22,359 bases of DNA, taken from NCBI GenBank assembly GCA_018897155.1, contig JAHILE010000011.1, positions 1-22,359 on the forward strand. Direction: 5' to 3'. Within the stretch, counting starts at the first letter, position 1, and every line of letters begins with the position of its first letter. The stretch is from Nanoarchaeota archaeon (GTDB lineage Archaea > EX4484-52 > LFW-46). The translations under genes and the position numbers were made by a program. Positions 245 to 22,359 of this stretch are shown in pieces. Under the pieces are notes generated by a model, which ran no database searches, was not told the origin of the DNA, and saw only the letters and a list, made by a program, of their open reading frames with translations.

Positions 245-2283
245 AAAATAAAACGTTTTATGTTACTACGCCAATTTACTATGTTACTGCAGTTCCTCAT
301 ATAGGAACAGCATATACAACAATAGCTGCAGATGTTTTGGCGCGCTGGCATCGCCTTAAGGGAGATGATGTATTTTTCCTTACAGGAACTGATGAGCACG
401 GCGAAAAAGTGCAGGAGGCTGCGAAAAAAGCAGGCAAAGAGCCGCAGGAATTTGTGGATTCTCTTGCGCCAAAATTCAAGGATGCCTGGTCAAAATTGAA
501 TATTTCTTACGATAAATTCATTCGCACAACTGATGCAGAGCACGAAAAAGCAGTTATGGAACTCATCAAAAAAGTGCATGCATCTGGCGATATTTACAAA
601 GGCATGTATGAAGGATGGTACTGCGTTCCTGATGAAACGTTCTATACAGAACTTCAGCTGGTTGATGGCAAATGCCCTGTGTGCAAAAGGGAAGTCAAAA
701 AAGTAAAAGAAGAGTCTTATTTTTTTAACTTGTCAAAGTATCAAAAACCGCTTCTTGATTTTTACAAAAAGAACCCTGAGTTTCTTTCGCCGAAATACCG
801 CGCGCAAGAGATAATAAATCGTGTCCAAGGCGGCTTAAAGGATTTGAGCATCACGCGCACATCTTTCGCATGGGGGATTCCGTTTCCGCTTGATACAGGT
901 CATGTTACTTATGTCTGGTTTGATGCGCTACCGAATTACATAACTGCGCTTGGCTGGCCCGAGGGTGAAGAATTCAAAAAATTCTGGCCTGCTGATGTTC
1001 ATTTAATCGGAAAGGAGATAAATTGGTTTCACTCAGTGATATGGCCTGCGATGCTGATGTCTGCGGAAATGGATCTTCCGAAAAAAGTCTTTGCGCACGG
1101 ATGGTGGACCGTAAACGGCGAGAAAATGTCAAAATCGCGCGGCAATGTCGTTGATCCAATTGTACTTTCAGAGAAATATTCTGTTGATGTAATAAGATAC
1201 TTCCTTTTGCGCGAGGTTCCTTTTGGAACAGACGGCGATTTTTCAGAAGCCGCGCTTGTGGCAAGAATCAACAGCGACCTTGCGGATGATTTGGGAAACC
1301 TTTTGTCAAGGACCCTCGCAATGGTTGAAAAATATTTTGGCGGAAAAATACCTGGGTCAAAAACACATGCCAAAATATTGGTGGATGCATCGGATATTGT
1401 TTCAGAAGTGGATGCAAAAATAGACGCGCTTGAATTCTCAGAAGCTTTGCAGACCATATGGGGTTTTGCAAAAACATGCAACAAATACATAACTGATGTT
1501 AAGCCGTGGGATCTTTACAAGAACAAAAAAGAGGATGAGCTTGCATCGGTCATATACAGCCTTGTAGAATCAATACGGATAATCGCGATTTTGATAATTC
1601 CATATATGCCTTCAAAATCCGCGGAAATTCTTGCGCAATTAAATGTTCCGTCAGAAAAAATTACGCTAAAAGACGCAAAATGGGGCGGGCTTAAATCAGG
1701 TACAGAGGTAAAAAAAGGCAATGTTCTTTTCAGAAAAATGGAATTGACGCAGGATCCTTTTGAAAAACTGGATTTGCGCGTTGCAAAAATTCTCGATGTC
1801 AAAGAGCATCCCGATGCAGAGAAATTATATGTTGTTCAGATTGATGTTGGCGGCGAAAAATCATCTCATTCTGCTTTGCAGAATTCGAAGCTTTTTGACT
1901 CTTCGAGTCAAAAACGGCAACTAGTTGCAGGGCTTCGCGAATATTATCAAAAAGAGGAGCTTGCGGGCAAAAAAGTAGCGTTTGTTTACAATCTGAAGCC
2001 CGCAAAAATCCGTGGAATCGAGTCGCAGGGAATGATTCTTGCAGCAGATGATGGAAAGACTCTTTCAGTGCTTTCAGCAGAAAAATCAGAGCCTGGCGCA
2101 TCTGTGTTTGCAGAAGGCATTGTGAAAAAGCCGGCGCAGGAAGTGTCTTTTGACGATTTCCAGAAGCTTGAGATATTGATTGATGCGGATGGATTCGCGC
2201 GCTATAAAGAAAAAAAACTGCGCACCCAAAATGAGGAAATTCGCACTGAGCGAAAAGTTGAGATGGGAGCGCGGGTGAGATAA
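241..2283 (+). CDS. metG: Methionyl-tRNA synthetase with C-terminal tRNA-binding domain
   Basis: Class I methionyl-tRNA synthetase, which charges tRNA-Met with methionine in the cytoplasm. The Rossmann catalytic core starts with TPIYYV and PHIGTAYTT (the HIGH motif, here HIGT) and ends with KMSKS near residues 296-300. A single metal-knuckle insert, with C128, D131, C145 and C148, resembles the short bacterial MetG type more than the two-knuckle archaeal type, and one usual Cys is Asp. An alpha-helical anticodon-binding domain follows, then a C-terminal OB-fold tRNA-binding domain from about residue 500 (DLRVAKI, HPDAEKLY). Residues 541-558 are an in-frame 18-residue insertion encoded by a palindromic element at 1861-1914; without it the text reads GGEKRQLVAGL, the normal family sequence. 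Length is 680 aa. It converges on the gene at 2287 with a 3-nt gap. Bacterial-like architecture suggests ancient transfer. Confidence 0.96.
   Translation: MKNKTFYVTTPIYYVTAVPHIGTAYTTIAADVLARWHRLKGDDVFFLTGTDEHGEKVQEAAKKAGKEPQEFVDSLAPKFKDAWSKLNISYDKFIRTTDAEHEKAVMELIKKVHASGDIYKGMYEGWYCVPDETFYTELQLVDGKCPVCKREVKKVKEESYFFNLSKYQKPLLDFYKKNPEFLSPKYRAQEIINRVQGGLKDLSITRTSFAWGIPFPLDTGHVTYVWFDALPNYITALGWPEGEEFKKFWPADVHLIGKEINWFHSVIWPAMLMSAEMDLPKKVFAHGWWTVNGEKMSKSRGNVVDPIVLSEKYSVDVIRYFLLREVPFGTDGDFSEAALVARINSDLADDLGNLLSRTLAMVEKYFGGKIPGSKTHAKILVDASDIVSEVDAKIDALEFSEALQTIWGFAKTCNKYITDVKPWDLYKNKKEDELASVIYSLVESIRIIAILIIPYMPSKSAEILAQLNVPSEKITLKDAKWGGLKSGTEVKKGNVLFRKMELTQDPFEKLDLRVAKILDVKEHPDAEKLYVVQIDVGGEKSSHSALQNSKLFDSSSQKRQLVAGLREYYQKEELAGKKVAFVYNLKPAKIRGIESQGMILAADDGKTLSVLSAEKSEPGASVFAEGIVKKPAQEVSFDDFQKLEILIDADGFARYKEKKLRTQNEEIRTERKVEMGARVR
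1861..1914 (+). repeat. Double-hairpin element, in-frame copy in metG
   Basis: A 54-nt block begins TCATCTC, has stem 1 ATTCTGC/GCAGAAT (loop TTT), the joint TCGAAGC, and stem 2 TTTTTGACTC/GAGTCAAAAA (loop TTC). It adds exactly 18 codons with no stop. Removing it joins codons GGC GAA AAA to CGG CAA, restoring the GEKRQ segment conserved in MetRS tRNA-binding domains. The start (TCAT), the AAGC joint and the terminal AAAA are shared with the copies at 5188, 5300, 5371, 5803 and 20470. Confidence 0.8.
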
Positions 2284-2286
2284 TCC

Positions 2287-2883
2287 CTATTCTTTGACGT
2301 GATACACTCCGTTAGTTTCGTCTTTTAAAATATTCGCGTCTTTAAGTATTTTATTGATTTTTTCTGGTTCTTCGATTTCAATGAGCGCCACACCATCAAT
2401 ATTTCCATAATATTCTTTGTATTTAAGTCCGTAAATCTTTGCTTTTTCAGAAGGTTTGCTCGATGTTATGCGAACTTGTTTCGTATTTTCTAATATGTCT
2501 TCAGTCCTTCCAAAACTTTCTACCGTCAATATGTAAATTGCATTTAAATCGTGCAATTGCTTAGCAACTTCTTTGGGATTGTTGACATTTATGTGTGGTG
2601 CCATTAGATTTTCTATTGATTCACCATAATTTTTAACAGATGGCATTTTGCCATCATACATAATTGACAAGATTAAATTTTCTACATCTTTTGCTCGATA
2701 TAGTTCTCCATTTTTGTTTACTATGTAGGTTCCTTTTAATAGCGTTTTATCATTTTTAATAAATTCTACATCATTGATATTTGGATTTGGTTTTGTCGCA
2801 GTGTATACAGTAACTCCTTTATCGCCCCAAATACTAAGGGGAACTTCAGTAGCGTTATAATTCATAGTAGTTGTATCTTTCAT
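2287..2883 (-). CDS. Uncharacterised 198-residue protein
   Basis: An intact reading frame of 198 codons with a good archaeal promoter upstream. No signal peptide or membrane segment is visible; the protein is soluble, mixed alpha/beta and rich in Lys, Asn and Glu. I recognise no domain. A central AKQLHDLNAIYILTVESFG stretch could be a beta-alpha unit, and the C-terminal half has alternating hydrophobic strands. The start could also be the Met at residue 7, but the TATA box spacing suits the first ATG. The gene is convergent with metG and sits downstream of sufS on the same strand, with its own promoter in the 73-nt gap. Confidence 0.75.
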   Translation of the reverse strand: MKDTTTMNYNATEVPLSIWGDKGVTVYTATKPNPNINDVEFIKNDKTLLKGTYIVNKNGELYRAKDVENLILSIMYDGKMPSVKNYGESIENLMAPHINVNNPKEVAKQLHDLNAIYILTVESFGRTEDILENTKQVRITSSKPSEKAKIYGLKYKEYYGNIDGVALIEIEEPEKINKILKDANILKDETNGVYHVKE

Positions 2884-2913
2884 AATATCACTACTTTATA
2901 ATAGTTACTATAG

Positions 2914-2921
2914 TATTTAAA
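2914..2921 (-). promoter_or_regulatory. TATA box for the 198-residue gene
   Basis: On the minus strand TTTAAATA is preceded by GAAAGG (BRE-like). Its centre is about 34 bp from the ATG, so transcription would start about 8 nt before the coding region. Confidence 0.6.
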
Positions 2922-2956
2922 CCTTTCGGTATATCAAATATGCTAAAATTGCGCGC

Positions 2957-4162
2957 TTATGAGAACAGTTTTGCAATCTTGCTCAATTCAACCGCAAAAA
3001 CATCAATCTCTTCTTTTGTGTTGTATATGTGAAATGACGCGCGTACGCTTCCCTTTCGGCCTAAAAGCGTGTGTAAGGGATACGCGCAATGATATCCGCT
3101 TCTGGTTGCGATTTTCTTGGAATTGTCAAGCATGAGTGCGACTTCATGCGGGTCTGCACCAGTTACTTCAAAAGCAATAACGCCTGCGTTGTTTGCAGCG
3201 TTTTTATGCGATATTATTTCGACATTTTTTATTTCAGAAAGCCGCTTGATGCAGTGCGCAGTTATTTCTGTTGTGTGGCTCTCTATATTATTAATACCGA
3301 TTTTTTCGATATATCGCACGCCTTCACCAAGACCGATAACCCCTGCAATATTCGGTGTGCCTGCTTCAAAGCGGTCTGGGCATCGCGCAAGCTTATAGTC
3401 TGAAAATGTCGCTTCGTCAATTGTTCCGCCGCCAAGGATTCCGGGCTCAAGCAGGCCGAAATGTTTCTCATTTATATAAAGCGCGCCGGTTCCGGTTGGC
3501 CCGAGCGGGCCTTTATGGCCTGATAATGCAAGAAAATCAGCATTCATCTTTTTGACATTGACACCCATATGCCCTACAGCTGCGGCCGCATCAGTGCAGA
3601 ATAGCGCGCCATTATCATGCGCGATTTTAGCGATTTCGTCAACAGGGGTTTTTACGCCCAAAACATTTGACACCATTGTGACAGAAACAATTGCGGCATC
3701 CTTTGATGCCTTTTTCCAGTCTTCCATATTGAAGTTTCCTTCATTGTCTGATTTTACCACTTCAAGCGCAAGGCCGTGCGTTTTTGCAGCCATCATCCAT
3801 GGAAGCAGGTCGCTGTGGTGCTCGAGGTTTGACACAACTATCTTTTTCCCTTTTAGTTTTTTCCACGGCAGAGACAGCGAAAGAATGTTCAGAGCGTGTG
3901 TGGAATTCTGCGTCATCGCGATTTCTTCTGCCTTTGCGCCAAGAAAATCAGCAACAATTTTGTGGGCTTTTTCATACTCTTCAGACGCTTTCAGGCTCAG
4001 GCGATGTGCGCCTCTATGGACATTCGCGCAGTACTGCGTATAATACTCATTCATTTTATCGATTACGCACTGCGGCTTTAAGGTGGTTGCGGCGTTGTCG
4101 AAATATATGACGCCAGTATTCGCGAGAACCGGGAAATCCGTGCGGCATTTTTCAAGATTCAT
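2957..4162 (-). CDS. sufS: Cysteine desulfurase, SufS/CsdA type
   Basis: A PLP-dependent, fold-type I enzyme that takes sulfur from cysteine as an enzyme persulfide for Fe-S cluster and thio-cofactor assembly. The N-terminus FDNAATTLKP is typical of the group. NLEHHSDLLPW carries the PLP-stacking His (H115/H116). D191 should contact the pyridine nitrogen, K217 in SGHKGPLG forms the Schiff base, and C359 in RSGYHCA is the persulfide cysteine in the SufS-type context. At 401 aa it has the usual length. The usual DGAQ after the PLP-binding Asp reads DAAAA here, so a conserved Gln is Ala. No sufBC or sufE-like gene is in the window, so the sulfur acceptor is unknown. Transcription is likely leaderless from the TATA box at 4183-4190. 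Confidence 0.95.
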   Translation of the reverse strand: MNLEKCRTDFPVLANTGVIYFDNAATTLKPQCVIDKMNEYYTQYCANVHRGAHRLSLKASEEYEKAHKIVADFLGAKAEEIAMTQNSTHALNILSLSLPWKKLKGKKIVVSNLEHHSDLLPWMMAAKTHGLALEVVKSDNEGNFNMEDWKKASKDAAIVSVTMVSNVLGVKTPVDEIAKIAHDNGALFCTDAAAAVGHMGVNVKKMNADFLALSGHKGPLGPTGTGALYINEKHFGLLEPGILGGGTIDEATFSDYKLARCPDRFEAGTPNIAGVIGLGEGVRYIEKIGINNIESHTTEITAHCIKRLSEIKNVEIISHKNAANNAGVIAFEVTGADPHEVALMLDNSKKIATRSGYHCAYPLHTLLGRKGSVRASFHIYNTKEEIDVFAVELSKIAKLFS

Positions 4163-4182
4163 GGTAATATAACGGGGTTATA

Positions 4183-4190
4183 AGTTTAAA
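4183..4190 (-). promoter_or_regulatory. TATA box for sufS
   Basis: The minus-strand motif TTTAAACT, preceded by CCTT, is centred about 25 bp upstream of the sufS ATG. This predicts a leaderless mRNA. Confidence 0.6.
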
Positions 4191-4230
4191 AGGATTTTAT
4201 TGCATATTGCGGAATAAAAAGTCTTCAATG

Positions 4231-4242
4231 TTTATTAATATG
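4231..4242 (+). promoter_or_regulatory. TATA box for the gene at 4262
   Basis: TTTATTAATATG is centred about 26 bp upstream of the ATG at 4262, which again predicts a leaderless transcript. It is divergent from the sufS promoter in the 99-bp spacer. The spacer also holds a 7-bp inverted repeat, TTTTATT/AATAAAA. Confidence 0.55.
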
Positions 4243-4261
4243 TGCCTCGACAATATCTATT

Positions 4262-4756
4262 ATGTCGCTGAATCTTGTAGAATCGGTTGCTCGGGTTGAC
4301 GAATCTCAGGAACTGAAAACATCCCTAACAGACGCGTATTTCTGCTCGGCAATAACCTTTGTGCTTCCGGAGGAGCCCATTGAGTATTGGGATCTGAATT
4401 ATTACAATCCGAAAACAGGCGACATAACACACATAAGAGCATCTTCTGATTCTCTTGAGTTGAAAAGCACAGACAAGCCGCTGAAGCAAAAAGAGCCGAA
4501 AAAAATAGATATAAAAACCGTATGCATTGACATTGATGAGACCATAAAGACGGCAGGTGTTGCCCGTGATAAGATTTACGCGTCTGCTATCCAGAAAATT
4601 TTTGTGTCGCTTTTTTCAGAAGAGTTTGCCATTTGGGGCATAACCTACATACTCACTAATATGAAAATAGTGCAGATTAAGATTGACGCGCGAAATGGCA
4701 GCGTAATCGATTCTAAGCTTATTGATTTTATGCAGAATACCGGAATTGCGCAGTAG
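4262..4756 (+). CDS. Uncharacterised 164-residue protein with two similar lobes
   Basis: An intact soluble frame without signal peptide. Two segments look alike: around residues 35-60 (LPEEPIEYWDLNYYNPKTG, then IRAS) and around residues 117-150 (SEEFAIWGITYI, then IDARNGSVID). Each has an acidic turn, a Trp, a tyrosine-bearing strand and a later strand ending near a Gly or Asn turn. This resembles the small PepSY-like beta sandwich fold in outline, but I do not claim membership. The gene ends 1 nt before the convergent stop of the DUF3467 gene. Confidence 0.7.
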   Translation: MSLNLVESVARVDESQELKTSLTDAYFCSAITFVLPEEPIEYWDLNYYNPKTGDITHIRASSDSLELKSTDKPLKQKEPKKIDIKTVCIDIDETIKTAGVARDKIYASAIQKIFVSLFSEEFAIWGITYILTNMKIVQIKIDARNGSVIDSKLIDFMQNTGIAQ

Positions 4757-4757
4757 A

Positions 4758-5117
4758 TTATCCTACATACGCACTCGTATCTTCGCTTTTTTCCTTATCA
4801 GAAATCGTTGTTTTTGCGCCAGGCCTCATCGCAGCGATGTCTTTTATTTTGCCGAACTGAGCCTCGTATTTTGCAATGTTATCAACGATGGCCGCGCGCA
4901 AACTTGCCGCATGCTGCGGAGTTATGACGATTCTTGATGTGACTTTTATTTTGTTTGTTCCGGGAATGAACTGCCCGAAATCAAGGTAGAATTCAAAAGG
5001 CGTGTGCCATATTTTTACAGAGTTTGCGAATTTTGCGACCTGATTTGCTTCATCAACCAGTACTTCAAATTGCGCGCCATGTTTTTTTTCGTTTGATTGT
5101 TTTTCTTTCTTTAGCAT
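4758..5117 (-). CDS. DUF3467 family protein
   Basis: A 119-residue protein matching the DUF3467 pattern: FANSVKIWHTPFEFYLDFGQ (residues 30-50), then SRIVITPQHAASL and a NIAKYEAQFGKI helix. The family is found in bacteria and archaea, and its function is not established. A Lys/Glu-rich N-terminal dozen residues and an acidic C-terminal tail flank the core. Transcription is probably leaderless from the TATA box at 5139-5147. It is convergent with the 164-residue gene, and their stops nearly touch. Confidence 0.85.
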   Translation of the reverse strand: MLKKEKQSNEKKHGAQFEVLVDEANQVAKFANSVKIWHTPFEFYLDFGQFIPGTNKIKVTSRIVITPQHAASLRAAIVDNIAKYEAQFGKIKDIAAMRPGAKTTISDKEKSEDTSAYVG

Positions 5118-5138
5118 ATTTGCTTATTGTTTTTAGAA

Positions 5139-5147
5139 TTATATAAG
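5139..5147 (-). promoter_or_regulatory. TATA box for the DUF3467 gene
   Basis: The minus-strand motif CTTATATAA is centred about 26 bp upstream of the ATG at 5117. This fits a leaderless mRNA. Confidence 0.6.
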
Positions 5148-5187
5148 CCTTAGACTTTTTTAAGAAGAATATATGCTCCCGCCGAGA

Positions 5188-5232
5188 TTTTCGTATGCGA
5201 AGCATCGAAAAGCTTGCGATGCAATCGCATGA
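5188..5232 (-). repeat. Double-hairpin element in the T-loop of tRNA-Glu
   Basis: Read on the minus strand, 45 nt start TCAT and end GAAAA. Stem 1 is GCGAT/ATCGC and the joint is AAGC. Stem 2 is TTTTCG plus ATGC, loop TTC, GCAT plus CGAAAA with one bulged A. Taking out exactly these 45 nt leaves a perfect seven-base TTCGAAT T-loop, with no duplicated target bases beyond one ambiguous T. Confidence 0.8.
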
Positions 5233-5299
5233 TTCGAACTCGGGTCACAGGCGTTCTCTGGCTCGTATTTTCGGCGGTTTTAACAGGTGACTTGCGCGA

Positions 5300-5352
5300 T
5301 TTTCAAGTTCGAGAGAACTTGAAAAGCTTGAAAATCCGAAGGATTTTCATGA
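5300..5352 (-). repeat. Double-hairpin element in the tRNA-Glu anticodon intron (minus orientation)
   Basis: 53 nt beginning TCAT and ending GAAAA. Stem 1 is TGAAAATCC/GGATTTTCA (loop TTC), the joint is AGC, and stem 2 is TTTTCAAGTTC/GAACTTGAAAA (loop TCTC). It sits in the TTC loop of the GCGC/GCGC stem of the host 53-nt unit, and subtraction restores that loop. Confidence 0.8.
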
Positions 5353-5370
5353 AGCGCGAGTCGCCCTAAG

Positions 5371-5418
5371 TCATGGCACTAACGTGCCAAGCTTTTTTGT
5401 CTCTTTCGAGCCAAAAAA
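5371..5418 (+). repeat. Double-hairpin element in the tRNA-Glu anticodon intron (plus orientation)
   Basis: 48 nt beginning TCAT and ending AAAAAA. Stem 1 is GGCAC/GTGCC (loop TAAC), the joint is AAGC, and stem 2 is TTTTTTG and CTC paired with GAG and CAAAAAA, with one internal mismatch and loop TTTC. It lies in the single-stranded joint between the two hairpins of the host unit; the empty equivalent is CCCTAAG|CGCCGG at 5528-5540. Confidence 0.8.
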
Positions 5419-5502
5419 CACCGGCCGATTATGCGGCCGTGAGAGGCCCGTATCCTTGACCGGACTAGACTACAGGAGCAATTTGTTTGTTTTTATAATG
5501 TT

Positions 5503-5555
5503 GGTGACCATGCCGAAGGCGTGGTCGCCCTAAGCGCCGGCCGATTATGCGGCCG
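5503..5555 (-). repeat. 53-nt two-hairpin unit, uninterrupted copy between tRNA-Val and tRNA-Glu
   Basis: A perfect 12-bp stem (5503-5514 with 5518-5529, loop GAA) and a CGGCCG/CGGCCG hairpin (5537-5555) are joined by CTAAG and two bases. It is the empty-site counterpart of 5286-5439. Differences between the copies fall mainly in the upper stem, where both partners change and pairing is kept. Function is unknown. It is not a clear H/ACA RNA, because the stem lacks a guide pocket, nor a C/D RNA. Confidence 0.7.
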
Positions 5556-5558
5556 AGA

Positions 5559-5660
5559 TGGGTCAACCCGGATTTGAACCGGGGACCTTCGCCATTTTGT
5601 GATATTGGCAAGCGCCAAATATTGCGTCAAGGCGACGTCATACCGCTAGACTATTGACCC
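5559..5660 (-). tRNA. tRNA-Val(GAC) with one canonical intron
   Basis: Acceptor GGGTCAA (5654-5660) pairs with TTGACCC (5560-5566), discriminator A. The D-arm GTCTAGCGGTATGAC is Val-like. The anticodon stem TCGCC/GGCGA closes loop TTGACG...T, giving anticodon GAC (5626-5628). A 30-nt intron at 5595-5624 lies between positions 37 and 38 and forms a hairpin, ATATTTGGC/GCCAATAT with one bulged T. T-stem CCGGG/CCCGG and loop TTCAAAT are standard. CCA is not encoded. The 3' flank runs almost directly into the 53-nt structured unit. Confidence 0.9.
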
Positions 5661-5802
5661 GTTTGTTTTTTATCCCAATGCGTAATGTGAATGGTTGTAG
5701 ATGGGGCTTTCCGGATTTGAACCGGAGTCTCTGGCTATTTATAACGCACTTACACAACTTTGGGAAGCACAAGAGCAAAACCCAAAGCCAGAAGGATGAC
5801 CA

Positions 5803-5904
5803 TTTTAGCATGCGGAGCAGCTAAATCTTCTCGCTCGCGTTCGAAGCTTTTGAGGTTTGATTCTTCAAAAAGCTTGTGAACGTCGCGAAGCTGCTTTCGC
5901 ATGA
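5803..5904 (-). repeat. Double-hairpin element in the D-loop of tRNA-Pro, interrupted by a nested copy
   Basis: 102 nt in total. Without the nested 45 nt, the outer copy is 57 nt on the minus strand: TCAT, stem 1 GCGAA/TTCGC, a nine-base spacer, AAGC, stem 2 TTTTAGC/GCTAAAA. Its removal gives the normal nine-base D-loop AGCTTGGTC. The nested copy has split stem 2 just after its TTTT, showing successive insertion. Confidence 0.8.
5826..5870 (+). repeat. Nested double-hairpin element
   Basis: 45 nt on the plus strand beginning TCTTCTCG and ending TTCAAAA, with the joint TTCGAAGC (shared with the metG copy) and stem 2 TTTTGA/TCAAAA. Stem 1 is weak here (CGC/GCG). Excision re-forms the outer element's AAGC-TTTTAGC...GCTAAAA structure. 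Confidence 0.72.
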
Positions 5905-5951
5905 AGCTACCCTAAAGCCCCTTATTTCTCTAAACTGCATAGATGGGCAAA

Positions 5952-5961
5952 CTTTATAAAA
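5952..5961 (+). promoter_or_regulatory. Nearly symmetric TATA box, apparently bidirectional
   Basis: CTTTATAAAA reads as a TATA element on both strands. About 26 bp to the left is the 5' flank of tRNA-Pro (start near 5930). About 26 bp to the right (near 5982) is the start of the 31-codon ORF at 5990. No other good TATA motif serves either gene. Confidence 0.5.
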
Positions 5962-5989
5962 CTGCGGATGTATGTATGGTTGTGTTTCT

Positions 5990-6085
5990 ATGGGAAAGAC
6001 GCGCAAAAAGACAATAAAAATAAAGGAAGAGAAAAAGCAGAGGCTTGTAAAGACATTGAAGAGAAGAAAAGCTGCTTCTGAGTAA
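5990..6085 (+). CDS. 31-residue highly basic small protein
   Basis: ATG to TAA, 31 codons, about 45 percent Lys and Arg (MGKTRKKTIKIKEEKK..., then KTLKRRK). It is helix-prone and looks like a nucleic-acid or ribosome-binding peptide. Size and charge recall tiny ribosomal proteins such as eL41, but the sequence does not match it and I do not assign it. The start at 5990 is preferred over the in-frame ATG at 5972 because the TATA box predicts transcription from about 5982. It lies between the tRNA cluster and the surface protein gene. Confidence 0.5.
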   Translation: MGKTRKKTIKIKEEKKQRLVKTLKRRKAASE

Positions 6086-6133
6086 CTTATTGAATATGAT
6101 GGTTTCTTGAAATTACGACAACTATTTATAGCT

Positions 6134-8929: not shown

Positions 8930-8953
8930 TTTATGTCTAAACTTTTTCTAAAA

Positions 8954-8963
8954 TCTATATATA
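8954..8963 (+). promoter_or_regulatory. TATA box for the 2097-residue surface protein
   Basis: TCTATATATA would start transcription near 8985, leaving a short leader that contains GAGG at 8992-8995, eight bases before the ATG at 9004. A second candidate, ACATATATAATAC (8974-8986), would make the transcript leaderless. Confidence 0.5.
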
Positions 8964-9003
8964 GGGGTTAGGCACATATATAATACATTTTGAGGCAGTT
9001 ATA

Positions 9004-15297: not shown

Positions 15298-15331
15298 CGG
15301 CTTTTGAATTTGGGAGTAATTGGGTAATTTT

Positions 15332-16837
15332 ATGATAAAAAAAATATTTGTGATTTTATTTGTGCTGGCTTTATTGCCTTCAGTAGCTATGGCAACGCTT
15401 ACAGTGACTGCTTCCCAGTCAGGAGCGGATTCCGGCAGCGTTATTTCGGGAAAAACATTTACAATCTCTGCTTCCGGATGGTCGGGCGACTGCAGTTCAG
15501 CGAACCTTGATTTAACTAGTTGTGCAGTGTGTAACGTATCCGAAAGCCAGATAAAATCTTTAAGCGGCTCAAGCGTTTCATGGACAACAATCACCGCAAG
15601 CAAGGCAAATTCGCAATCGATTTCTGTGAGCGTTTCGGGCTCATGCACGCCGGATTCAGGCAGCGTATTATTTGATGTGAAAAACCCGCCATCACTTTCT
15701 GCAACAGCAACATCCGCAGTTTCAATTACTCAAGGGTCTGCTGCTTCATTTAGCCTGAATATCCAAAATTCCGGCGAGACCACGGCAAAATTCGGGACAA
15801 TCACTGCTTCCGGAGGCAGCGGGCTTTCTTTATCGGACTGCGCTCCTTCAGACATTTCCGGAAGCCAAAGCCTTGGATTATCCTGCACAATAACCGCATC
15901 TTCTTCAGCTACACCCGTTGCGCAAACACTTACAATAAGCATAACGCCCTCAAATGCTGATTCGATAACAAAAACAATTTCAGTAACAGTCAGCGCATCC
16001 GGAGGCGATGATGTTGGCGGCGATACTGGCAGTTCCAGCGGCGGCGGCGGAGCAAGCGGCGGCGCAGCAGCAGTTAATAAAAAGAACGTGACTCATAAGC
16101 CCGTTCCTCCGGGCATTATGAACAACACAAAGCTTCAGGCAGCAATTGAAAAAGTGCTTGCAAAAGGCAAGCTCAGCCCGGAAGCTATAGGTAATCTTAT
16201 GCGTCTCTCAAATGCGATATCTAGTGAAAGCACAATATCGCGCACAATCAATTCAGGGGCATCAAAATCAAACGTAACCACAAAGATAAAATACACCGGC
16301 TTAAAGGCTGCAAAGAATTTTGTGGTTTATGAAAAAGTGCCGAAAACATTTGCAAACTCTTCGGACTTAATTACGGTTACAGCAGCCGGGGCAAAAGTCG
16401 AAGTTGTCCTGAAAGACCCTGAATACGCAATAGTGTTTGACACTGTAAATCCGAACCAGGAGCTTGAAATAACCTATTCAGTCAGCAAGTCTGTTTCGAC
16501 AAATGTTGTTGATTTATTCGCATCCGAAGTTTATGCAGAGTCTTTGGCAGACGCGCAAGCGCAGCAAACGGCTTGCGCGCAAGTAATAACGCCGGCTAAA
16601 AACCAAGCGACCGGTGAGTGCAAAGAATTTCCAACACCCTGTGATGTTCCAAGCGGATGGGATAAAGTCGATTCATGCAAAGCTGCGGCGACGCCAAAAG
16701 ATACTGTAAAGGAAACCGCCGAGCAATCGGAGAAAACCGGAATTTTTTCATGGACGCTAATTTTGGACATTCTTATCGCCCTGGTAGTTATTGCTGTTGG
16801 GTATTATTTCTTCAAGAAAAAGAATGGGAGCATATAG
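15332..16837 (+). CDS. Membrane-anchored secreted protein with CARDB-like domain
   Basis: 501 residues from the ATG at 15332. Signal peptide is residues 1-21 (MIKKIFVILFVLALLPSVAM). Two beta-sandwich domains follow, the second (about 120-220) resembling CARDB/NEW3 domains of archaeal surface proteins. A Gly/Ser-rich linker with DDVGGD (about 222-247) precedes a conserved-looking region (about 260-390) with NFVVYEKVPKTFANSSD and a strand ending LEITYSV. A four-Cys segment (CAQVITP, GECKEFPTPCDVPSGW) comes next, then a C-terminal helix (about 470-495, LILDILIALVVIAVGYYFF) and a short basic tail. The ATG is preferred to the upstream TTG at 15320 because it gives a compact signal peptide. It lies 34 nt after the giant protein and is probably co-transcribed, suggesting a partner in the envelope. 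Confidence 0.85.
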   Translation: MIKKIFVILFVLALLPSVAMATLTVTASQSGADSGSVISGKTFTISASGWSGDCSSANLDLTSCAVCNVSESQIKSLSGSSVSWTTITASKANSQSISVSVSGSCTPDSGSVLFDVKNPPSLSATATSAVSITQGSAASFSLNIQNSGETTAKFGTITASGGSGLSLSDCAPSDISGSQSLGLSCTITASSSATPVAQTLTISITPSNADSITKTISVTVSASGGDDVGGDTGSSSGGGGASGGAAAVNKKNVTHKPVPPGIMNNTKLQAAIEKVLAKGKLSPEAIGNLMRLSNAISSESTISRTINSGASKSNVTTKIKYTGLKAAKNFVVYEKVPKTFANSSDLITVTAAGAKVEVVLKDPEYAIVFDTVNPNQELEITYSVSKSVSTNVVDLFASEVYAESLADAQAQQTACAQVITPAKNQATGECKEFPTPCDVPSGWDKVDSCKAAATPKDTVKETAEQSEKTGIFSWTLILDILIALVVIAVGYYFFKKKNGSI

Positions 16838-16859
16838 GTACAGACTGTGGGTGTGCAAA

Positions 16860-16870
16860 AGGATATATAA
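16860..16870 (+). promoter_or_regulatory. TATA box for prefoldin beta
   Basis: AGGATATATAA is centred about 37 bp upstream of the ATG at 16903, predicting a 10-nt leader. This supports starting the gene here rather than at codons overlapping the previous gene. Confidence 0.6.
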
Positions 16871-16902
16871 GCTTTGCAGGGAAATTCTTATTGTGGTTAA
16901 AT

Positions 16903-17268
16903 ATGACAGGACCCGAATCTTACGATATCATGCAAATTTTTCAGGAATTTCAGCAGGAGCTTCAAAGCATTATCTATCAGAAAGAAGCCATGCGCATGCA
17001 TTTGCAGGAGCTTGAGGCTTCGTTAAAAGAGCTTTCTGCAGCCAAGAGCGACGTTTACAAGGCAATGGGCGCGATTTTAATCAAAGCAACTCCTGAACTG
17101 TTGGCAAAAGAGCTGAATGATGAGCGGGAATTGATTGAAGTGCGCACAAAATCCCTTGAAAAACAGGAAAAAATTGTTCGTGAAAAATTAACCGCGCTTC
17201 AGAACCAAGTAATACAGTCGCAGGCCGCAAGAAGCGGCGCTGCAATTCCGGGAAGCGGTGTGAAATGA
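16903..17268 (+). CDS. pfdB: Prefoldin beta subunit
   Basis: The beta subunit of the archaeal hexameric prefoldin chaperone (two alpha, four beta), which holds unfolded proteins for the thermosome. Its 121 residues match the family length. Two long amphipathic coiled-coil helices (about residues 10-50 and 75-110) flank a beta-hairpin segment with SDVYKAMGAILIKATPELLAKEL, the typical beta-class core. The tail is disordered (GAAIPGSGVK). The frame is open upstream to 16675, but that part overlaps the previous coding region and the promoter; the ATG at 16903 fits both family and TATA box. The alpha subunit is not in the window. Confidence 0.93.
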   Translation: MTGPESYDIMQIFQEFQQELQSIIYQKEAMRMHLQELEASLKELSAAKSDVYKAMGAILIKATPELLAKELNDERELIEVRTKSLEKQEKIVREKLTALQNQVIQSQAARSGAAIPGSGVK

Positions 17269-17270
17269 TA

Positions 17271-17801
17271 TTATTTTTCTTCACGTATTTTCTTGAATAG
17301 GTATCCAGTATATATTAATGATGCATATGCTTCAATTAAGTATGTTATTCCCAGAAGCAGTTCATCAGGATTTCTAAGCGTAATGTATCTGCTGAGAATT
17401 TGATGCGCATCTCCTTGAGGTATCAGCCACCATATTATTACAAGGGGGAGTGTAATAAGAAAATGCCAGTATCTGATAGTCAGGGCAACTTTGCTTGTGG
17501 TGATTTTTTTGCTTAACAAATACATCAGAAGTATGTCGATAATAAAAAGAACGTAAAGCCAGAGTGCGCCGCCTCCTATGCTTATTCCAAGCGACCATTC
17601 AACATACGTTTCAATCGTCATCATTTCAAGGGAGGGGTAGTAGAAAAACGCCAATAAAAGCGTGAATGTGGTGAACTGCGGCGACTTATCGCCTAAAAGC
17701 GGAACAGCCAGCCAAGTTGCAAGTATTGCGGCTGAGCATAATAATATCCTGATTCGGTCAAAGAAAATCAGCCGCTCAATAAATGATTTGCTAATCTGCA
17801 T
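17271..17801 (-). CDS. Uncharacterised multi-pass membrane protein
   Basis: 176 residues with about five hydrophobic helices: ILLCSAAILATWLAVPLL, FTLLLAFFYYPSL, ALWLYVLFIIDILLMYLL, WHFLITLPLVIIWWLI and LLLGITYLIEAYASLIYTGYL. Short basic segments between them (KKITTSK at one loop, KKIREEK at the C-terminus) suggest the C-terminus is cytoplasmic. No family is recognised. GAGG in the leader sits just before the ATG, and a TATA box at 17827-17838 suits it. It converges on prefoldin beta with a 2-nt gap and is divergent from the SRP RNA. Confidence 0.75.
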   Translation of the reverse strand: MQISKSFIERLIFFDRIRILLCSAAILATWLAVPLLGDKSPQFTTFTLLLAFFYYPSLEMMTIETYVEWSLGISIGGGALWLYVLFIIDILLMYLLSKKITTSKVALTIRYWHFLITLPLVIIWWLIPQGDAHQILSRYITLRNPDELLLGITYLIEAYASLIYTGYLFKKIREEK

Positions 17802-17826
17802 TACCTCAAGTAATATTTGTAGGAAC

Positions 17827-17838
17827 CGTATTTATAGA
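17827..17838 (-). promoter_or_regulatory. TATA box for the membrane protein gene
   Basis: The minus-strand motif CTATAAATACGG predicts a start near 17807, six nt before the ATG at 17801. Confidence 0.55.
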
Positions 17839-17856
17839 TTCGATGAAAATAAAGCA

Positions 17857-17864
17857 TTTAAATA
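17857..17864 (+). promoter_or_regulatory. TATA box for the SRP RNA
   Basis: TTTAAATA preceded by an AAAGCA BRE-like stretch is centred 24-25 bp upstream of the predicted SRP RNA 5' end at 17885. This is the spacing expected for an archaeal promoter. Confidence 0.7.
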
Positions 17865-17884
17865 GAATTATTCAATATTTCTTT

Positions 17885-18158
17885 GGCAAGGATAGGCCGG
17901 GGCGCCAGGCGTGCCCTGTTACCCGCAATCGTCTTGGCGGGGGCTAAAGCAATTTTAGCGGCGGATTTTTTTGGAATCCTGTCTCGCGTTTCGAACAGAG
18001 ACGTCTTGCCCTGTCAGGTCTTTATTGCGCTGAATCTGGTGAGGCCTTGATCGGAGCAGCCATAAGGCGTGATTTAGGCGCTTTCAGGATCACAGGACCG
18101 AGGTAGATTCGTGCAGGCAGTTCTGAAGGAGTTCGTCCATAGAATTGCGTTCCTTGCC
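17885..18158 (+). ncRNA. ffs: Signal recognition particle (7S) RNA
   Basis: About 274 nt whose ends pair as helix 1 (GGCAAGGA with TCCTTGCC). The 5' Alu part matches archaeal SRP RNA: TAGGCCGGGG, then CTGTTACCCG at 17916-17925 (the UGUNR turn) and GGCGGGGGCTAAAGC, which build helices 3 and 4. The S domain has the helix 8 signature GGTGAGG at 18038-18044 and AGCAGCC at 18055-18061, enclosed by GAATCT/AGATTC. The RNA scaffolds SRP54 and SRP19 for targeting membrane and secreted proteins, such as the surface proteins upstream. The apex of helix 8 (CC TTGATC GG) is not the usual GNRA-type tetraloop. Ends are predicted from pairing and promoter spacing. Confidence 0.92.
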
Positions 18159-18160
18159 AC

Positions 18161-18362
18161 TTTTAATCATTTGCAATATTTCTTGGATTAAAAGGTTTCG
18201 AATGAGCGCAGCGAATGAGATGATTTTTTGTTTTGCATAACCTTATGCATGGCAAAGCAAAAAAGATGAGTGCTTCGCTTTAAATGATTAATAAGGCGAA
18301 GCGAACGGATTTTTAAATGAAGCTTGAAAAGCTGAGAGTTGCGCGCAAGCACAACGAACGGA
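18161..18362 (-). repeat. Tandem array of hairpin elements after the SRP RNA
   Basis: This stretch has no gene. On the minus strand it splits into about four units that abut at AAAA|TC or similar junctions. Unit 18161-18223 (63 nt) starts TCATCTCATTCG and ends with stem TTTTAATC/GATTAAAA. Unit 18224-18269 (46 nt) starts TCATC and has hairpin TGCATAA/TTATGCA inside TTTTTTG/CAAAAAA. Unit 18270-18309 has stem GCTTCGC/GCGAAGC. Unit 18310-18362 (53 nt) has GTTG/CAAC, AGC and TTTT...AAAA. The last two both begin TCCGTTCG. The first is the clearest match to the metG and gatA copies; the others are divergent. Confidence 0.6.
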
Positions 18363-18407
18363 TTTTCAATCTTGTACATACAGTATTGGGTTGAATGGCT
18401 TAAAGCC

Positions 18408-19058
18408 TCAAAACTCAATAATTTTCTTTTCAATCAAGAATGTTCGTACGTCTTCAAAAATTAGTTTATGTCCTTTTGAATTAGGGTGCACGCCGTCTTC
18501 GAGAAGGGTCACATAATCTGTTTTTATCCATTTGTCGAAAATATCAATGAAGTGCACATTATTTTTCGCGCAAGCCGCCTTTATTATTTCGTTGTATTTT
18601 TCGAGGCGCGCGTTTTTATACGACACCTCAGCATCCCAGAAAACCGGATTTGTCCGCGATTCATCAACAGGTGCCGGAAGCACGCAAATTATGCTGTCCG
18701 AATATTTTCGCGCAAGTGCGATTAGCTTATTGATATTTTTTATGAATTTGATGGGTGCAGTCCACGAAACACCTTTTCGGTCTTTGATGGTGTCGTTTGC
18801 CCCAACTGCAAAAATAATAATAATTTTTTCATTTTTGCCAATGCGCTGTTTTGCCTCAAACTCAAATCGTTTCAGAAGGCTTCCTGTTGTAGTTCCGGAA
18901 ATGCTGAGGTTATATAATGCGCAATAAAATTCTTGATTGGTGTCAATTACTTTTTTAGTCAGCTCTTTTCGGATGCGCTCAACCCAACCGCCTTCATAAT
19001 CCCATGCGCCATAAGCGTCGCTGTCGCCGAAAATAAGTATTTTGATGTCTTGCGCCAT
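18408..19058 (-). CDS. SGNH/GDSL-family hydrolase
   Basis: A 216-residue esterase/lipase-like hydrolase from the preferred ATG at 19058. Block I is LIFGDSDAYGAW (catalytic Ser about 13), block II the Gly of NLSISGTTTG, block III FAVGANDT (oxyanion Asn), and block V LEDGVHPNSKGH (catalytic Asp and His). There is no signal peptide, so it is probably cytoplasmic; the substrate cannot be read from sequence. An upstream in-frame ATG at 19079 would lie before the transcription start predicted by the TATA-like CATTATAG (19093-19100), so the shorter form is chosen. It follows the HD-domain gene on the same strand. Confidence 0.87.
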   Translation of the reverse strand: MAQDIKILIFGDSDAYGAWDYEGGWVERIRKELTKKVIDTNQEFYCALYNLSISGTTTGSLLKRFEFEAKQRIGKNEKIIIIFAVGANDTIKDRKGVSWTAPIKFIKNINKLIALARKYSDSIICVLPAPVDESRTNPVFWDAEVSYKNARLEKYNEIIKAACAKNNVHFIDIFDKWIKTDYVTLLEDGVHPNSKGHKLIFEDVRTFLIEKKIIEF

Positions 19059-19101
19059 ATAATTCGCCAAAAATTGCATTAAAACATAAACCTATAATGC
19101 A

Positions 19102-19812
19102 TTAACGTTTCATCTGTTCTTCAAAACGCTCCTTTCCCAAAAGTTCCTTGCAGAAATCAAGCGAAACAGTGAGGCGCGAATTAGAAACAGACACAGCAGT
19201 CTTTGTGTAAAAAGGCACGCCTTTCAGCATGCATTTTATTTTTTTGAGGTATTGTGCACCCATTTCCGAGGTTGTCATTTTTTCTTTTGCAGCAAAAAGC
19301 GCAGCACGTGCGCACCCGGCATAGCCAAGTGTGTCGTACAAATCTGCATCATAAACTATTTTTGCTTCAAGAGTTTGCGGAATGGTTTTTCCGCCTTCGG
19401 TATGATGTGTTTCTATCGCATGCATTATTTTTGCTATTTCCTCGTCTTTGTAATAGAAATCCGGAAGGATTTTTTTTGAAAGCGCGGCGCTGTCTATCGC
19501 ATGGCTATTATGCTTTGCTTTGTGATGGTGCGTTTTTGAAGTTTTTTTGCTCGGTTCATTTTCGCCAAAAAAAGTCTGCGGCCGTACAATATCGTGCAAA
19601 AGAAGCGCAGGTTCAAGTATTTCAAGGTCTGCTTTTTCAGTTTCACCAAGATGCATTCCGATTTTCCAGACGCGCAGGACGTGATCGAGGTCGTGCGCAG
19701 AGTCCTGAACTTTGGAGTTTGACAAAACCATAGTGACGAATTCGTGAAGCGCTTTTACGCGCGCGGAGTTTGCAGATTTTGTATCCATATCACTATATAT
19801 GTCGTCCGACAT
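19102..19812 (-). CDS. HD-domain metal-dependent phosphohydrolase
   Basis: A 236-residue HD-superfamily protein. It has H44 in AHDLDHVLRV, the HD pair H73-D74 in LLHDIVRP, and a later acidic YDADLYDTLG (D155, D157) where the final metal ligand is expected. Such enzymes cleave nucleotides or other phosphate esters; the substrate is not predictable. Residues about 80-103 (GENEPSKKTSK..HHHKAKH) form a Lys/His-rich insert between the HD helix and the next helix, where relatives are short. Its start lies inside the last codons of gatA (20-nt overlap in another frame), implying translational coupling. A Met at residue 9 is an alternative start. Confidence 0.85.
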   Translation of the reverse strand: MSDDIYSDMDTKSANSARVKALHEFVTMVLSNSKVQDSAHDLDHVLRVWKIGMHLGETEKADLEILEPALLLHDIVRPQTFFGENEPSKKTSKTHHHKAKHNSHAIDSAALSKKILPDFYYKDEEIAKIMHAIETHHTEGGKTIPQTLEAKIVYDADLYDTLGYAGCARAALFAAKEKMTTSEMGAQYLKKIKCMLKGVPFYTKTAVSVSNSRLTVSLDFCKELLGKERFEEQMKR

Positions 19813-21244
19813 TTAATATAGTTTTCTCCGCAAGATAGTTTCCAAGAATATGAATTCCGACAGGCATTCCTTTTGAAGTTCCGCATGGAGCAGACAGCAT
19901 CGGAATTCCTGCTAAATTCGGCGAGCCTGTTAGGATGTCGGCATAATAATGCTCGATAGGCGTCAATTTTTCAATTTCAGAGAATTTCGGCGCGATAAAC
20001 GGCATTGTCGGCGAGACAAGAATATCATACTTTTTAAACGCCTGCTTGTAGTCATTAATGATCAATTGCCTTACTTTCATTGCCTTCAGATAATATTTGT
20101 CGCGGTATCCGGCCATTCGCGCGTAAGTTCCAAGGATTATTCTTCGCTTTGCCTCTTCACCAAGGTATTTTCCGCGCACTTTTGAGAAATATTCATTGAA
20201 TTCGCCTTCAAGCGGAAGCGTTGCGCCGTATCTTATCCCGCAGAATTTTGCAAGATTTGTGGACGCTTCTGCCATTGCGATGATATAATATGCAGGAATC
20301 GAAAATTCAGTATTTGGAAGCGAACATTCCTCGACTTTCGCACCTTCGCTTTCAAGCGTTTTTATCTGCGTCCAGACAACCTTTTTTATGTCCTCGTTTA
20401 TTTCGCTTCCGAAGAATTCACGCGGAACGCCAATTATTATTTTTCTCAAATCGGTTTTCAGAGAATAATCATCTCGCTTCGTTTCGCTTGCTCCAAGCTT
20501 TTCAGATTTCATCTGAAAATCATCTACTTTTTCTGCAAGCGATGTCGAATCTTTTGCATCGTGCCCAGCAATTACCGAAAGCCCAAGAGCAATATCATCG
20601 ACTTTTTTTGCCATGACGCCTATTTTGTCAAGGCTCGATGCATAATCTATGAGGCCGTATCTGGAAACTCTTCCATATGTCGGCGTGAGGCCGTAAACTC
20701 CGCAGAATGCCGCCGGAGCAGAAATAGAGCCTCCCGTTGATTCTGCAATTGCGATGTGAGGAAACTCAAGCGCAGCAGTAATTCCGCCGGCACCTCCTGA
20801 TGAACCTCCGCAAGAACGCTGAATATCAATAGGATTTTTCGGGATTCCGTATGCTGAATTTACAGAGAATGTGCCGAATCCGAATTCATCCTGCACGGTT
20901 TTTCCGATAATTACGCCGCCCTCTTTTTTCGCGCGCTCTATGCACGTTGCATCAAAAGGAGGCACGTAGCTTTCAAGAATTTTTGAGCCCGCTGTTGTTC
21001 TAATTCCTTTGGTGCATATATTGTCCTTAACTGAAATCGGGATGTTAGTAAGCGCACCCTTGGGCAGTTTTTTCAATTGTTCCATTGCAGAATCTTGCGA
21101 AATCGTGACAAAATAGTTGTATTTTTTCTGGAGCTTTTCAATTTCAGAAAAAAACGCGCCATAAAAATTAAGGGTATCGATGTTTCCTTTTTTTGATTCT
21201 GAGATAAAATCAGAAACCGACATTCCGGAATATTTTTTGCTCAT
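19793..21244 (-). CDS. gatA: Glutamyl-tRNA(Gln)/aspartyl-tRNA(Asn) amidotransferase subunit A
   Basis: The glutaminase/amidase subunit of GatCAB, which releases ammonia from Gln to amidate Glu-tRNA-Gln or Asp-tRNA-Asn. Amidase-signature catalytic residues are present: K73 in SVKDNI, the cis-Ser in RSCGGSSGGAGG (148/149) and the nucleophile S173 in STGGSISAPAAFCG. 483 aa is the normal length even though residues about 242-258 are an in-frame 17-residue insertion encoded by a palindromic element (20470-20520). Without it the sequence runs VDDYSLKTDLRKIIIGVPREFF, as in relatives. gatB and gatC are not in the window. The mRNA is probably leaderless and also carries the overlapping HD gene. Confidence 0.95.
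   Translation of the reverse strand: MSKKYSGMSVSDFISESKKGNIDTLNFYGAFFSEIEKLQKKYNYFVTISQDSAMEQLKKLPKGALTNIPISVKDNICTKGIRTTAGSKILESYVPPFDATCIERAKKEGGVIIGKTVQDEFGFGTFSVNSAYGIPKNPIDIQRSCGGSSGGAGGITAALEFPHIAIAESTGGSISAPAAFCGVYGLTPTYGRVSRYGLIDYASSLDKIGVMAKKVDDIALGLSVIAGHDAKDSTSLAEKVDDFQMKSEKLGASETKRDDYSLKTDLRKIIIGVPREFFGSEINEDIKKVVWTQIKTLESEGAKVEECSLPNTEFSIPAYYIIAMAEASTNLAKFCGIRYGATLPLEGEFNEYFSKVRGKYLGEEAKRRIILGTYARMAGYRDKYYLKAMKVRQLIINDYKQAFKKYDILVSPTMPFIAPKFSEIEKLTPIEHYYADILTGSPNLAGIPMLSAPCGTSKGMPVGIHILGNYLAEKTILNVGRHI
20470..20520 (+). repeat. Double-hairpin element, in-frame copy in gatA
   Basis: 51 nt, antisense to gatA, starting TCATCTCG and ending CTGAAAA. It has the CCAAGC joint and stem 2 TTTTCAGA/TCTGAAAA (loop TTTCA); stem 1 is imperfect (GCTTCG/CGCTTGC region). 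It adds 17 codons without a stop. TCATCT also occurs just after it, so a short target duplication or chance match is possible. Removal restores the contiguous VDDYSLKTD reading. Confidence 0.75.
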
Positions 21245-22178: not shown

Positions 22179-22359
22179 TGGACTGCACCCCTAAAAGTGG
22201 ACAATTAGTTAAGCTTCATACAGAACACTTAAAGGGGTGCAAAAATGAAGCTGAGGAGAAAATTTACAAAGGAATTCAAACTATCCGTTGTGCGCGAATT
22301 GGAAGCCACATCGCTGGCTGAAGTGTGCAGGGCGCACAGTGTCAGCCCGTCTGTCTTAA
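22179..22359 (+). mobile_element. Left end of an IS3-family-like insertion sequence (partial)
   Basis: TGGACTGCACCCC at 22179 resembles the TG-starting terminal repeats of IS3-group elements. It is followed 53 bp later by a transposase OrfA-like frame. TGCACCCCT (22185-22193) is the reverse complement of AGGGGTGCA (22233-22241), so a transcript reading in from outside could hide the OrfA ribosome-binding site. The right end and orfB lie outside the window. Confidence 0.75.
22245..22359 (+). CDS. IS3-like transposase OrfA, N-terminal part
   Basis: The frame opens at ATG after a strong AGGGGTG ribosome-binding site and stays open to the window edge (38 codons). MKLRRKFTKEFKLSVVREL, then SLAEVCRAHSVSPS, is the helix-turn-helix of OrfA in IS3-type transposases, which binds the element ends. 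The strong Shine-Dalgarno sequence differs from the leaderless or weak-SD style of the neighbouring archaeal genes, which fits recent arrival from elsewhere. Confidence 0.82.
   Translation, partial: MKLRRKFTKEFKLSVVRELEATSLAEVCRAHSVSPSVL

Follow-up and report, generated by a model that had tools for sequence, protein, structure and literature searches.

What are the paired hairpins, some 50 nucleotides (nts) to a unit, that sit inside essential enzyme genes and tRNA genes on a single archaeal contig, and how did they come to be there? The window in which they were encountered, 22,359 nts long, is contig C11 (JAHILE010000011.1) of a 1.43-Mb, 96% complete archaeal metagenome-assembled genome (MAG; G000, hereafter the host). 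Its closest relative in the genome collections is LFW-46 (G001), whose methionyl-tRNA synthetase (MetRS) is 72% identical to that of the host, and which belongs, by its published placement, to EX4484-52, a DPANN phylum that forms the sister group of Nanohaloarchaeota (PMC8561730). An earlier sequence-only reading of the window had described seven double-hairpin blocks, and a probable eighth, as one dispersed family sharing a plan. The analysis below indicates that these blocks are probably structure-defined, non-autonomous mobile DNA elements, and no cellular function is needed to explain them.

A family defined by pairing

Each unit measures 42 to ~60 nts and consists of TC(A/C)(T/G), a GC hairpin, the linker (A/C)(A/G)GC, and an AT-ended hairpin (TTTT...AAAA); direct reading of the window confirmed the plan TCAT, hairpin 1, AAGC, then hairpin 2 opened by TTTT and closed by AAAA. 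Four subtypes with covarying feet can be distinguished: A (TCAT...AAGC, in which hairpin 1 begins immediately), B (TCATCTC...TCGAAGC), C (TCCTTTC...AGGC), and D (TCCGTTC...CGGC). A tally of perfect hairpin pairs sorted solely by their linker carried no information, as AAGC ranked only seventh of all linkers; the signal emerges only when linkers are combined with the AAAA/TTTT feet.

The stems differ in sequence while their pairing is kept, as had been claimed from the window. Twenty copies aligned well without structural help, and in this alignment 85.5% of cells pair, with a covariation of 0.442 versus 0.166 for shuffled partners and at most 0.104 with slid partners (below 0.1 for a slide of one column). 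The 93 matches found in 358 kb of LFW-46 gave 91.4% of cells paired and a covariation of 0.482 versus 0.141 shuffled, in an alignment fitted to the covariance model and hence biased toward its structure. The stem cells comprise 1,539 Watson–Crick, 38 G-T, and 27 A-C combinations; G-T does not clearly outnumber A-C, so that a DNA palindrome, rather than an RNA, appears to be what is kept. Homologous units at L188, L192, and L199 have stems altered on both arms or a second hairpin wholly replaced, which suggests quasipalindrome correction at the replication fork or hairpin exchange; either process would keep stems perfect while their sequence drifts. Such processes have been discussed for other coding palindromes (PMC6649704).

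The family extends far beyond the window. A covariance model built from the 20 copies, with at most 57 candidates scored per genome, matched at least 56 sites in the host and at least 54 in LFW-46 (both family f1), thereby bearing out the expectation of many more copies and removing the possibility that none exist outside this contig. Elsewhere in the order, family f7 holds 9–39 matches per genome, f4 0–6, f6 0–3, and f5 2, and families f2 and f3 yielded none; in ~68 other archaeal genomes, none of them from this order, 0–2 matches each reached E ≤ 0.01, the false-positive level. A 449-kb set (four loci picked for other reasons, one of them from LFW-46) contained 76 matches at E < 0.01, and a relaxed scan of 422 kb returned 55 raw matches against 2–6 with both hairpins in shuffles. 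Extrapolation suggests ~190 loci in the host (57 in 422 kb) and ~250 in LFW-46 (75 in 358 kb), totals that may be too high given that the sampled contigs were chosen partly for tRNA genes or model matches. Coding DNA is depleted of copies: 13 of 57 loci lie in open reading frames, though these hold 87% of bases.

This mostly intergenic placement, together with the terminator-like look of a GC hairpin followed by AAGCTTTT, might suggest regulatory hairpins kept by selection, such as intrinsic terminators. Spacers between convergent genes are nonetheless not enriched in copies (2/42 vs. 20/162 spacers in the host; 8/49 vs. 25/159 in LFW-46), and copies also lie inside enzymes and tRNA introns and are gained or lost between species, which makes a regulatory origin hard to credit.

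The units also occur in arrays, in which GC and AT-ended hairpins alternate and the GC hairpin is sometimes reversed beyond a shared AT hairpin. The double-hairpin copies are modules of a wider hairpin grammar and not one fixed plan. Many composites of 140–180 nts in LFW-46 chain four to five hairpins with the same feet (L152:12135–12351, L155:6683–6899, and others).

Empty sites and the case for insertion

Mobility is supported by a set of orthologous loci at which the block is missing. The exact 18 amino acids (54 nts) of the MetRS copy are absent from the MetRS of LFW-46 and from four other MetRS homologues, and the residues encoded across the GatA copy occur in the host alone when GatA proteins of the order, that of LFW-46 included, are aligned. 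Two further genes of the host show the same pattern: an aminotransferase gene carries a 57-nt in-frame copy absent in LFW-46, and topoisomerase I (TopA) a 42-nt in-frame copy, the host reading GAAAAAATCATCTCG...CTCAAAAATCGAAAAAG where LFW-46 reads GAGAAAATCGAAAAAG. Every coding copy that was checked preserves the reading frame and is free of stops. In-frame insertion into protein genes is hence upheld, and relatives do not all carry the same blocks at the same sites. NFACT of LFW-46 carries an insertion of its own, and a second NFACT copy is common to both species, so this insertion predates some splits and not all copies are recent. Noncoding loci furnish comparable cases. A three-hairpin composite is empty in L028, its counterparts in L030 and L033 both hold one identical 53-nt copy, and the copies at L202/L203 in genus g9 split an AAAA^TTGC hairpin that is intact in homologous units. 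Copies also insert beside or inside one another, producing the hairpin arrays and composites.

The exact empty sites compared (aminotransferase and TopA) show no target-site duplication, and reading the terminal AAAA as a duplicated target was rejected, as copies with a non-A left flank still end in AAAA. In the flanks of 44 copies outside arrays, positions −4 to −1 are rich in A (64/61/73/55% vs. a background of 29%, p ≤ 3.4e-4), and its frequency is at background from −5 outward.

Local origin of the hairpins by template switching at A/T runs during replication, with no transposition of a unit, would account for some of these features: fold-back copying would leave TTTT between two A-runs, the stems are near perfect and sequence-diverse, and hairpins have been replaced in place. 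What local copying cannot supply is motifs, and the constant linkers TCAT/AAGC and subtype signatures such as TCATCTC...TCGAAGC recur at unrelated sites; the 53-nt copy common to two composites speaks against it as well. As an explanation it is unlikely. RNA-mediated retro-insertion, proposed for the double-hairpin elements of Allomyces mitochondria owing to their lack of target duplications (PMC2800124), would likewise agree with the junctions and with a plan that resembles a structured RNA. A reverse transcriptase domain, however, was detected in only one of the 34 genomes of the order, and in neither the host nor LFW-46, the two copy-rich f1 genomes, so that reverse transcription is unlikely there; and G-T and A-C combinations are nearly balanced in number, which does not favor selection at the RNA level. 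We regard this route as very improbable.

Mobile units of DNA are the reading we prefer, and several consequences follow from it. Selfish-looking DNA of ~50 nts has colonized essential enzymes and tRNA genes of streamlined DPANN genomes. Being conserved in structure and not in sequence, such elements are missed by ordinary repeat finders. The empty, filled, and shared insertions form a natural series for studying how palindromes move and how stem pairing is maintained.

Window copies and their tRNA hosts

Scored with the covariance model in the 449 kb, the main blocks of the window have E-values of 2.5e-15 to 1.1e-5 (Table 1). The seven blocks originally listed are thus all present far above chance, save that the one placed at 5803 does not count as a separate copy, being the outer portion of a single ~100-nt tRNA-Pro D-loop insertion that encloses the 5826 copy. 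The strands also required correction, the 5188 and 5300 copies lying on the minus strand and the remaining main blocks on the plus strand. The putative eighth copy, at 18161, is weak in the model and recognizable by eye as a subtype-B unit with the linker AAAC, the first of a three-unit array, which explains its weakness. A repeat with about 87% identity occurs at L034:12838–12921.

Table 1. Coordinates of hairpin elements and their tRNA hosts in the window
Feature	Position	Strand	Model match (bits)	Remarks
MetRS copy, subtype B, 54 nts	1861–1914	+	1861–1916 (57.5)	In frame in MetRS (gene 241–2283); encodes SSHSALQNSKLFDSSSQK
tRNA-Glu T-loop copy, 45 nts, TCAT...AAAA	5188–5232	−	5186–5232 (42)	
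Subtype A copy, 53 nts	5300–5352	−	5298–5352 (67.4)	Apical loop of a hairpin within the tRNA-Glu anticodon intron; top score in genome
Subtype A copy, 48 nts	5371–5418	+	5371–5420 (47.6)	Same tRNA-Glu anticodon intron as the 5300 copy; identical copy in a tRNA-Gly intron, L025:18121–18170
Subtype B copy, 45 nts	5826–5870	+	5826–5872 (31.5)	Nested in the tRNA-Pro D-loop insertion
GatA copy, subtype B, 51 nts	20469–20519	+	20469–20521 (45)	Antisense, in frame, GatA gene 19793–21244 (−); ~17 amino acids ending KRDD
Array of three hairpin units (B, D, D)	18161–18385 (about)	−	18159–18223 (16.4; E = 0.12)	Immediately downstream of the signal recognition particle (SRP) RNA gene; read from sequence
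tRNA-Glu(CTC) gene with anticodon-loop and T-loop introns	5174–5479	−		Syntenic LFW-46 gene in L145
tRNA-Glu anticodon (37/38) bulge–helix–bulge intron, 186 nts	5254–5439	−		CTCT/AGAG, 4/4 pairs; copies 5300 and 5371 lie within it
tRNA-Pro(TGG) gene bearing insertions in D-loop and anticodon	5702–5921	−		Sequence, LFW-46 synteny
tRNA-Pro D-loop insertion, ~100 nts, bulge–helix–bulge-like (TAGC/GCTA)	5804–5903	−		3′ cut uncertain by 1–2 nts

The copies had been said to invade tRNA loops. They are indeed present there, and the T- and D-loop inserts fit bulge–helix–bulge (BHB) introns, the copies either being these introns or lying inside them. The clearest case is the 5188 copy, which corresponds exactly to the T-loop (59/60) intron of tRNA-Glu. 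Its boundaries form a 4-bp central helix (TTCG/CGAA) flanked by two 3-nt bulges (AA|T and AA|T), and joining the exons gives the correct product, TTCGAAT. The minimum free energy fold of the tRNA-Glu T-arm is the BHB and not the double hairpin, its overall stability being unremarkable (z-score −1.0). At this T-loop site LFW-46 tRNA-Glu(CTC) bears a different insert, of 38 nts, that also fits a BHB, and ligation after removal of either insert would restore a normal seven-base T-loop. The 186-nt anticodon intron is absent in LFW-46; the D-loop site of LFW-46 tRNA-Pro is empty, and that gene has instead a ~215-nt T-loop intron, itself containing a copy. We infer that these inserts are candidate BHB introns. 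On this reading, being a spliceable intron, or residing in one, is what lets copies persist in tRNA genes.

Similar inserts recur in both species. T-loop (59/60) BHB introns are found in tRNA-Glu, -Ile, -Ala, and -Thr of the host (window 5188–5232; L005, L015, L022) and in tRNA-Pro, -Glu, and -Leu of LFW-46 (L121, L150). Those of tRNA-Ile, tRNA-Ala, and LFW-46 tRNA-Pro look homologous and end in GAAA(A/C)|T, so that noncanonical tRNA introns appear to be mobile in EX4484-52. A second hairpin pair (CGGCCGCATAATCGGCCG ... CTTAGGGCGACC..GGTCA; window 5500–5558, L008, L025:18067) recurs in the anticodon introns of several tRNAs and also stands alone between two tRNA genes.

Could the whole family, then, consist of mobile BHB introns that spread by reverse splicing and are excised from transcripts everywhere? 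The exact coincidence of the tRNA-Glu T-loop copy with a BHB intron would suit such an account, as would the likeness of the three T-loop introns with a common end. At the MetRS copy, in contrast, no BHB could be drawn by hand; the checked coding copies read through in frame, free of stops, and most copies are intergenic. Reverse splicing would moreover require a reverse transcriptase or an equivalent, and none was found in either f1 genome. As an account of the family it is quite unlikely. Conceivably, though the idea is speculative and unlikely, a mobile hairpin of ~45 nts could become a tRNA intron upon insertion, its right end CGAAAA completing a BHB with the conserved T-loop TTCGAA, such that transposable element and splicing signal would be one sequence. 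If true, this would be a route to new tRNA introns and would place these elements among the smallest units able to spread both as DNA and as introns. The family links mobile hairpins of small size to the question of how noncanonical tRNA introns arose.

Besides the three-tRNA cluster, the window encodes MetRS, a cysteine-desulfurase-like protein, large secreted proteins, SRP RNA, GatA, and a proteasome subunit; the names were read off the sequences, except for two RNAs with Rfam matches and for MetRS and GatA, which were aligned. At 22190–22359 lies what looks from its sequence like the start of an IS3-like transposase orfA (MKLRRKFTKEFKLSVVREL...), truncated at the contig end. The Rfam tRNA model (RF00005) matches only 18 genes in this 96% complete genome, and several insert-bearing tRNAs were found by a custom scan alone. 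Annotators should be warned that standard tools overlook tRNA genes in EX4484-52, many of them in the host.

Routes of movement and known systems

If the elements move as units of DNA, how might they do so? We tentatively propose, as a possibility that falls short of likely, that they move as folded single-stranded DNA handled by a trans-acting enzyme, most like the HUH/Y1 enzymes of the IS200/IS605–REP kind. Insertion occurs without target duplication and preferentially just 3′ of an A-rich tetranucleotide, and this target and the AAAA right end would be the two cleavage sites of such an enzyme. Several observations weigh against this proposal and against present-day mobility. No mobilizing enzyme was found for the elements. 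The three Y1 transposases of the host, considered as linked partners and rejected, are IS200-type (NF033573) and score 26–32 bits against REP_Tyr_transpos (cut-off 80); the flanks of their genes are IS200-like, and the ends of the element do not occur in them. Several copy-rich genomes, though incomplete MAGs, have no Y1 match. Insertion next to A-rich sequence is preferred without the strictness seen in IS608. Few copies in the host are identical, which leaves current activity unproven, and the more uniform copies are those of genus g9, within larger units with apparent terminal inverted repeats.

Two side observations concern such larger or neighboring repeats. The g9 units (L195, L196) end in TATAGTCAATC...GATTGACTATA, like terminal inverted repeats. 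A 76-nt repeat, 92% identical between L068:3383–3458 and L020:8623–8698, follows an IS200-type transposase at one site, stands alone at the other, and is perhaps a remnant of an IS200 end.

Known palindromic elements resemble this family in part. No description of such elements in DPANN was found in the open literature, subscription papers lying outside the search. Rickettsia palindromic elements (RPEs; Ogata et al., 2000, as described in PMC2229807) are likewise palindromic, non-autonomous, and dispersed, occur in RNA genes too, have no known transposase, and insert in frame into conserved protein genes whose orthologues lack them. Yet RPEs are single hairpins of 105–146 bp with conserved sequence, whose arm identity is lost with age (PMC6649704), whereas the present units have 42–60 nts, two hairpins, and unconserved but near-perfect stems, form arrays, and are compatible with introns. 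The sequence-only reading had known of no archaeal equivalent with this plan, a view left incomplete by Methanocaldococcus jannaschii, whose in-frame palindromic elements (Suyama et al., 2005) PMC2229807 cites as repetitive and fused into protein genes. The family described here shares all three of these traits, archaeal host included. The M. jannaschii elements, from Euryarchaeota, are reportedly about 100 nts long and fall into three sequence-based groups; no double-hairpin linker plan is known to us among them.

Close in architecture, too, are the Allomyces and related mitochondrial elements, which also have two adjacent hairpins, lack target duplications, differ in presence between close species, occupy RNA genes and spacers, and build up tandem hairpins (PMC2800124). 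They are mitochondrial and the present elements archaeal, and the likeness rests on plan, not on sequence comparison. To our knowledge, their linkers differ from those found here, and they neither lie in frame in core enzymes nor form BHB introns.

REPIN/REP–RAYT and IS200/IS605 systems share with the present elements small palindromes, short feet, the lack of target duplication, and insertion 3′ of a short target. A Y1-type derivative of IS200/IS605 would be expected to insert 3′ of a fixed tetranucleotide resembling its right end; here positions −4 to −1 are A-rich and the right end is AAAA, but the preference is not strict. REPIN/REP sequences are moved by RAYT Y1 transposases, presumably through a single-stranded DNA intermediate (PMC3116915). 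REPINs, however, conserve their sequence and adjoin a RAYT gene, whereas here the stems are unconserved and no RAYT-type Y1 flanked by the repeats was found. Classical miniature inverted-repeat transposable elements differ as well, as the present ends are TCAT and AAAA, the exact empty sites show no duplication, and larger units with inverted ends were seen only in g9. Finally, the noncanonical tRNA introns of Thermoproteales and Caldiarchaeum, with BHBs in D- and T-arms, are thought to be mobile between tRNA genes (PMC3293823). Those are introns only, whereas here one candidate intron also belongs to a genome-wide hairpin family.

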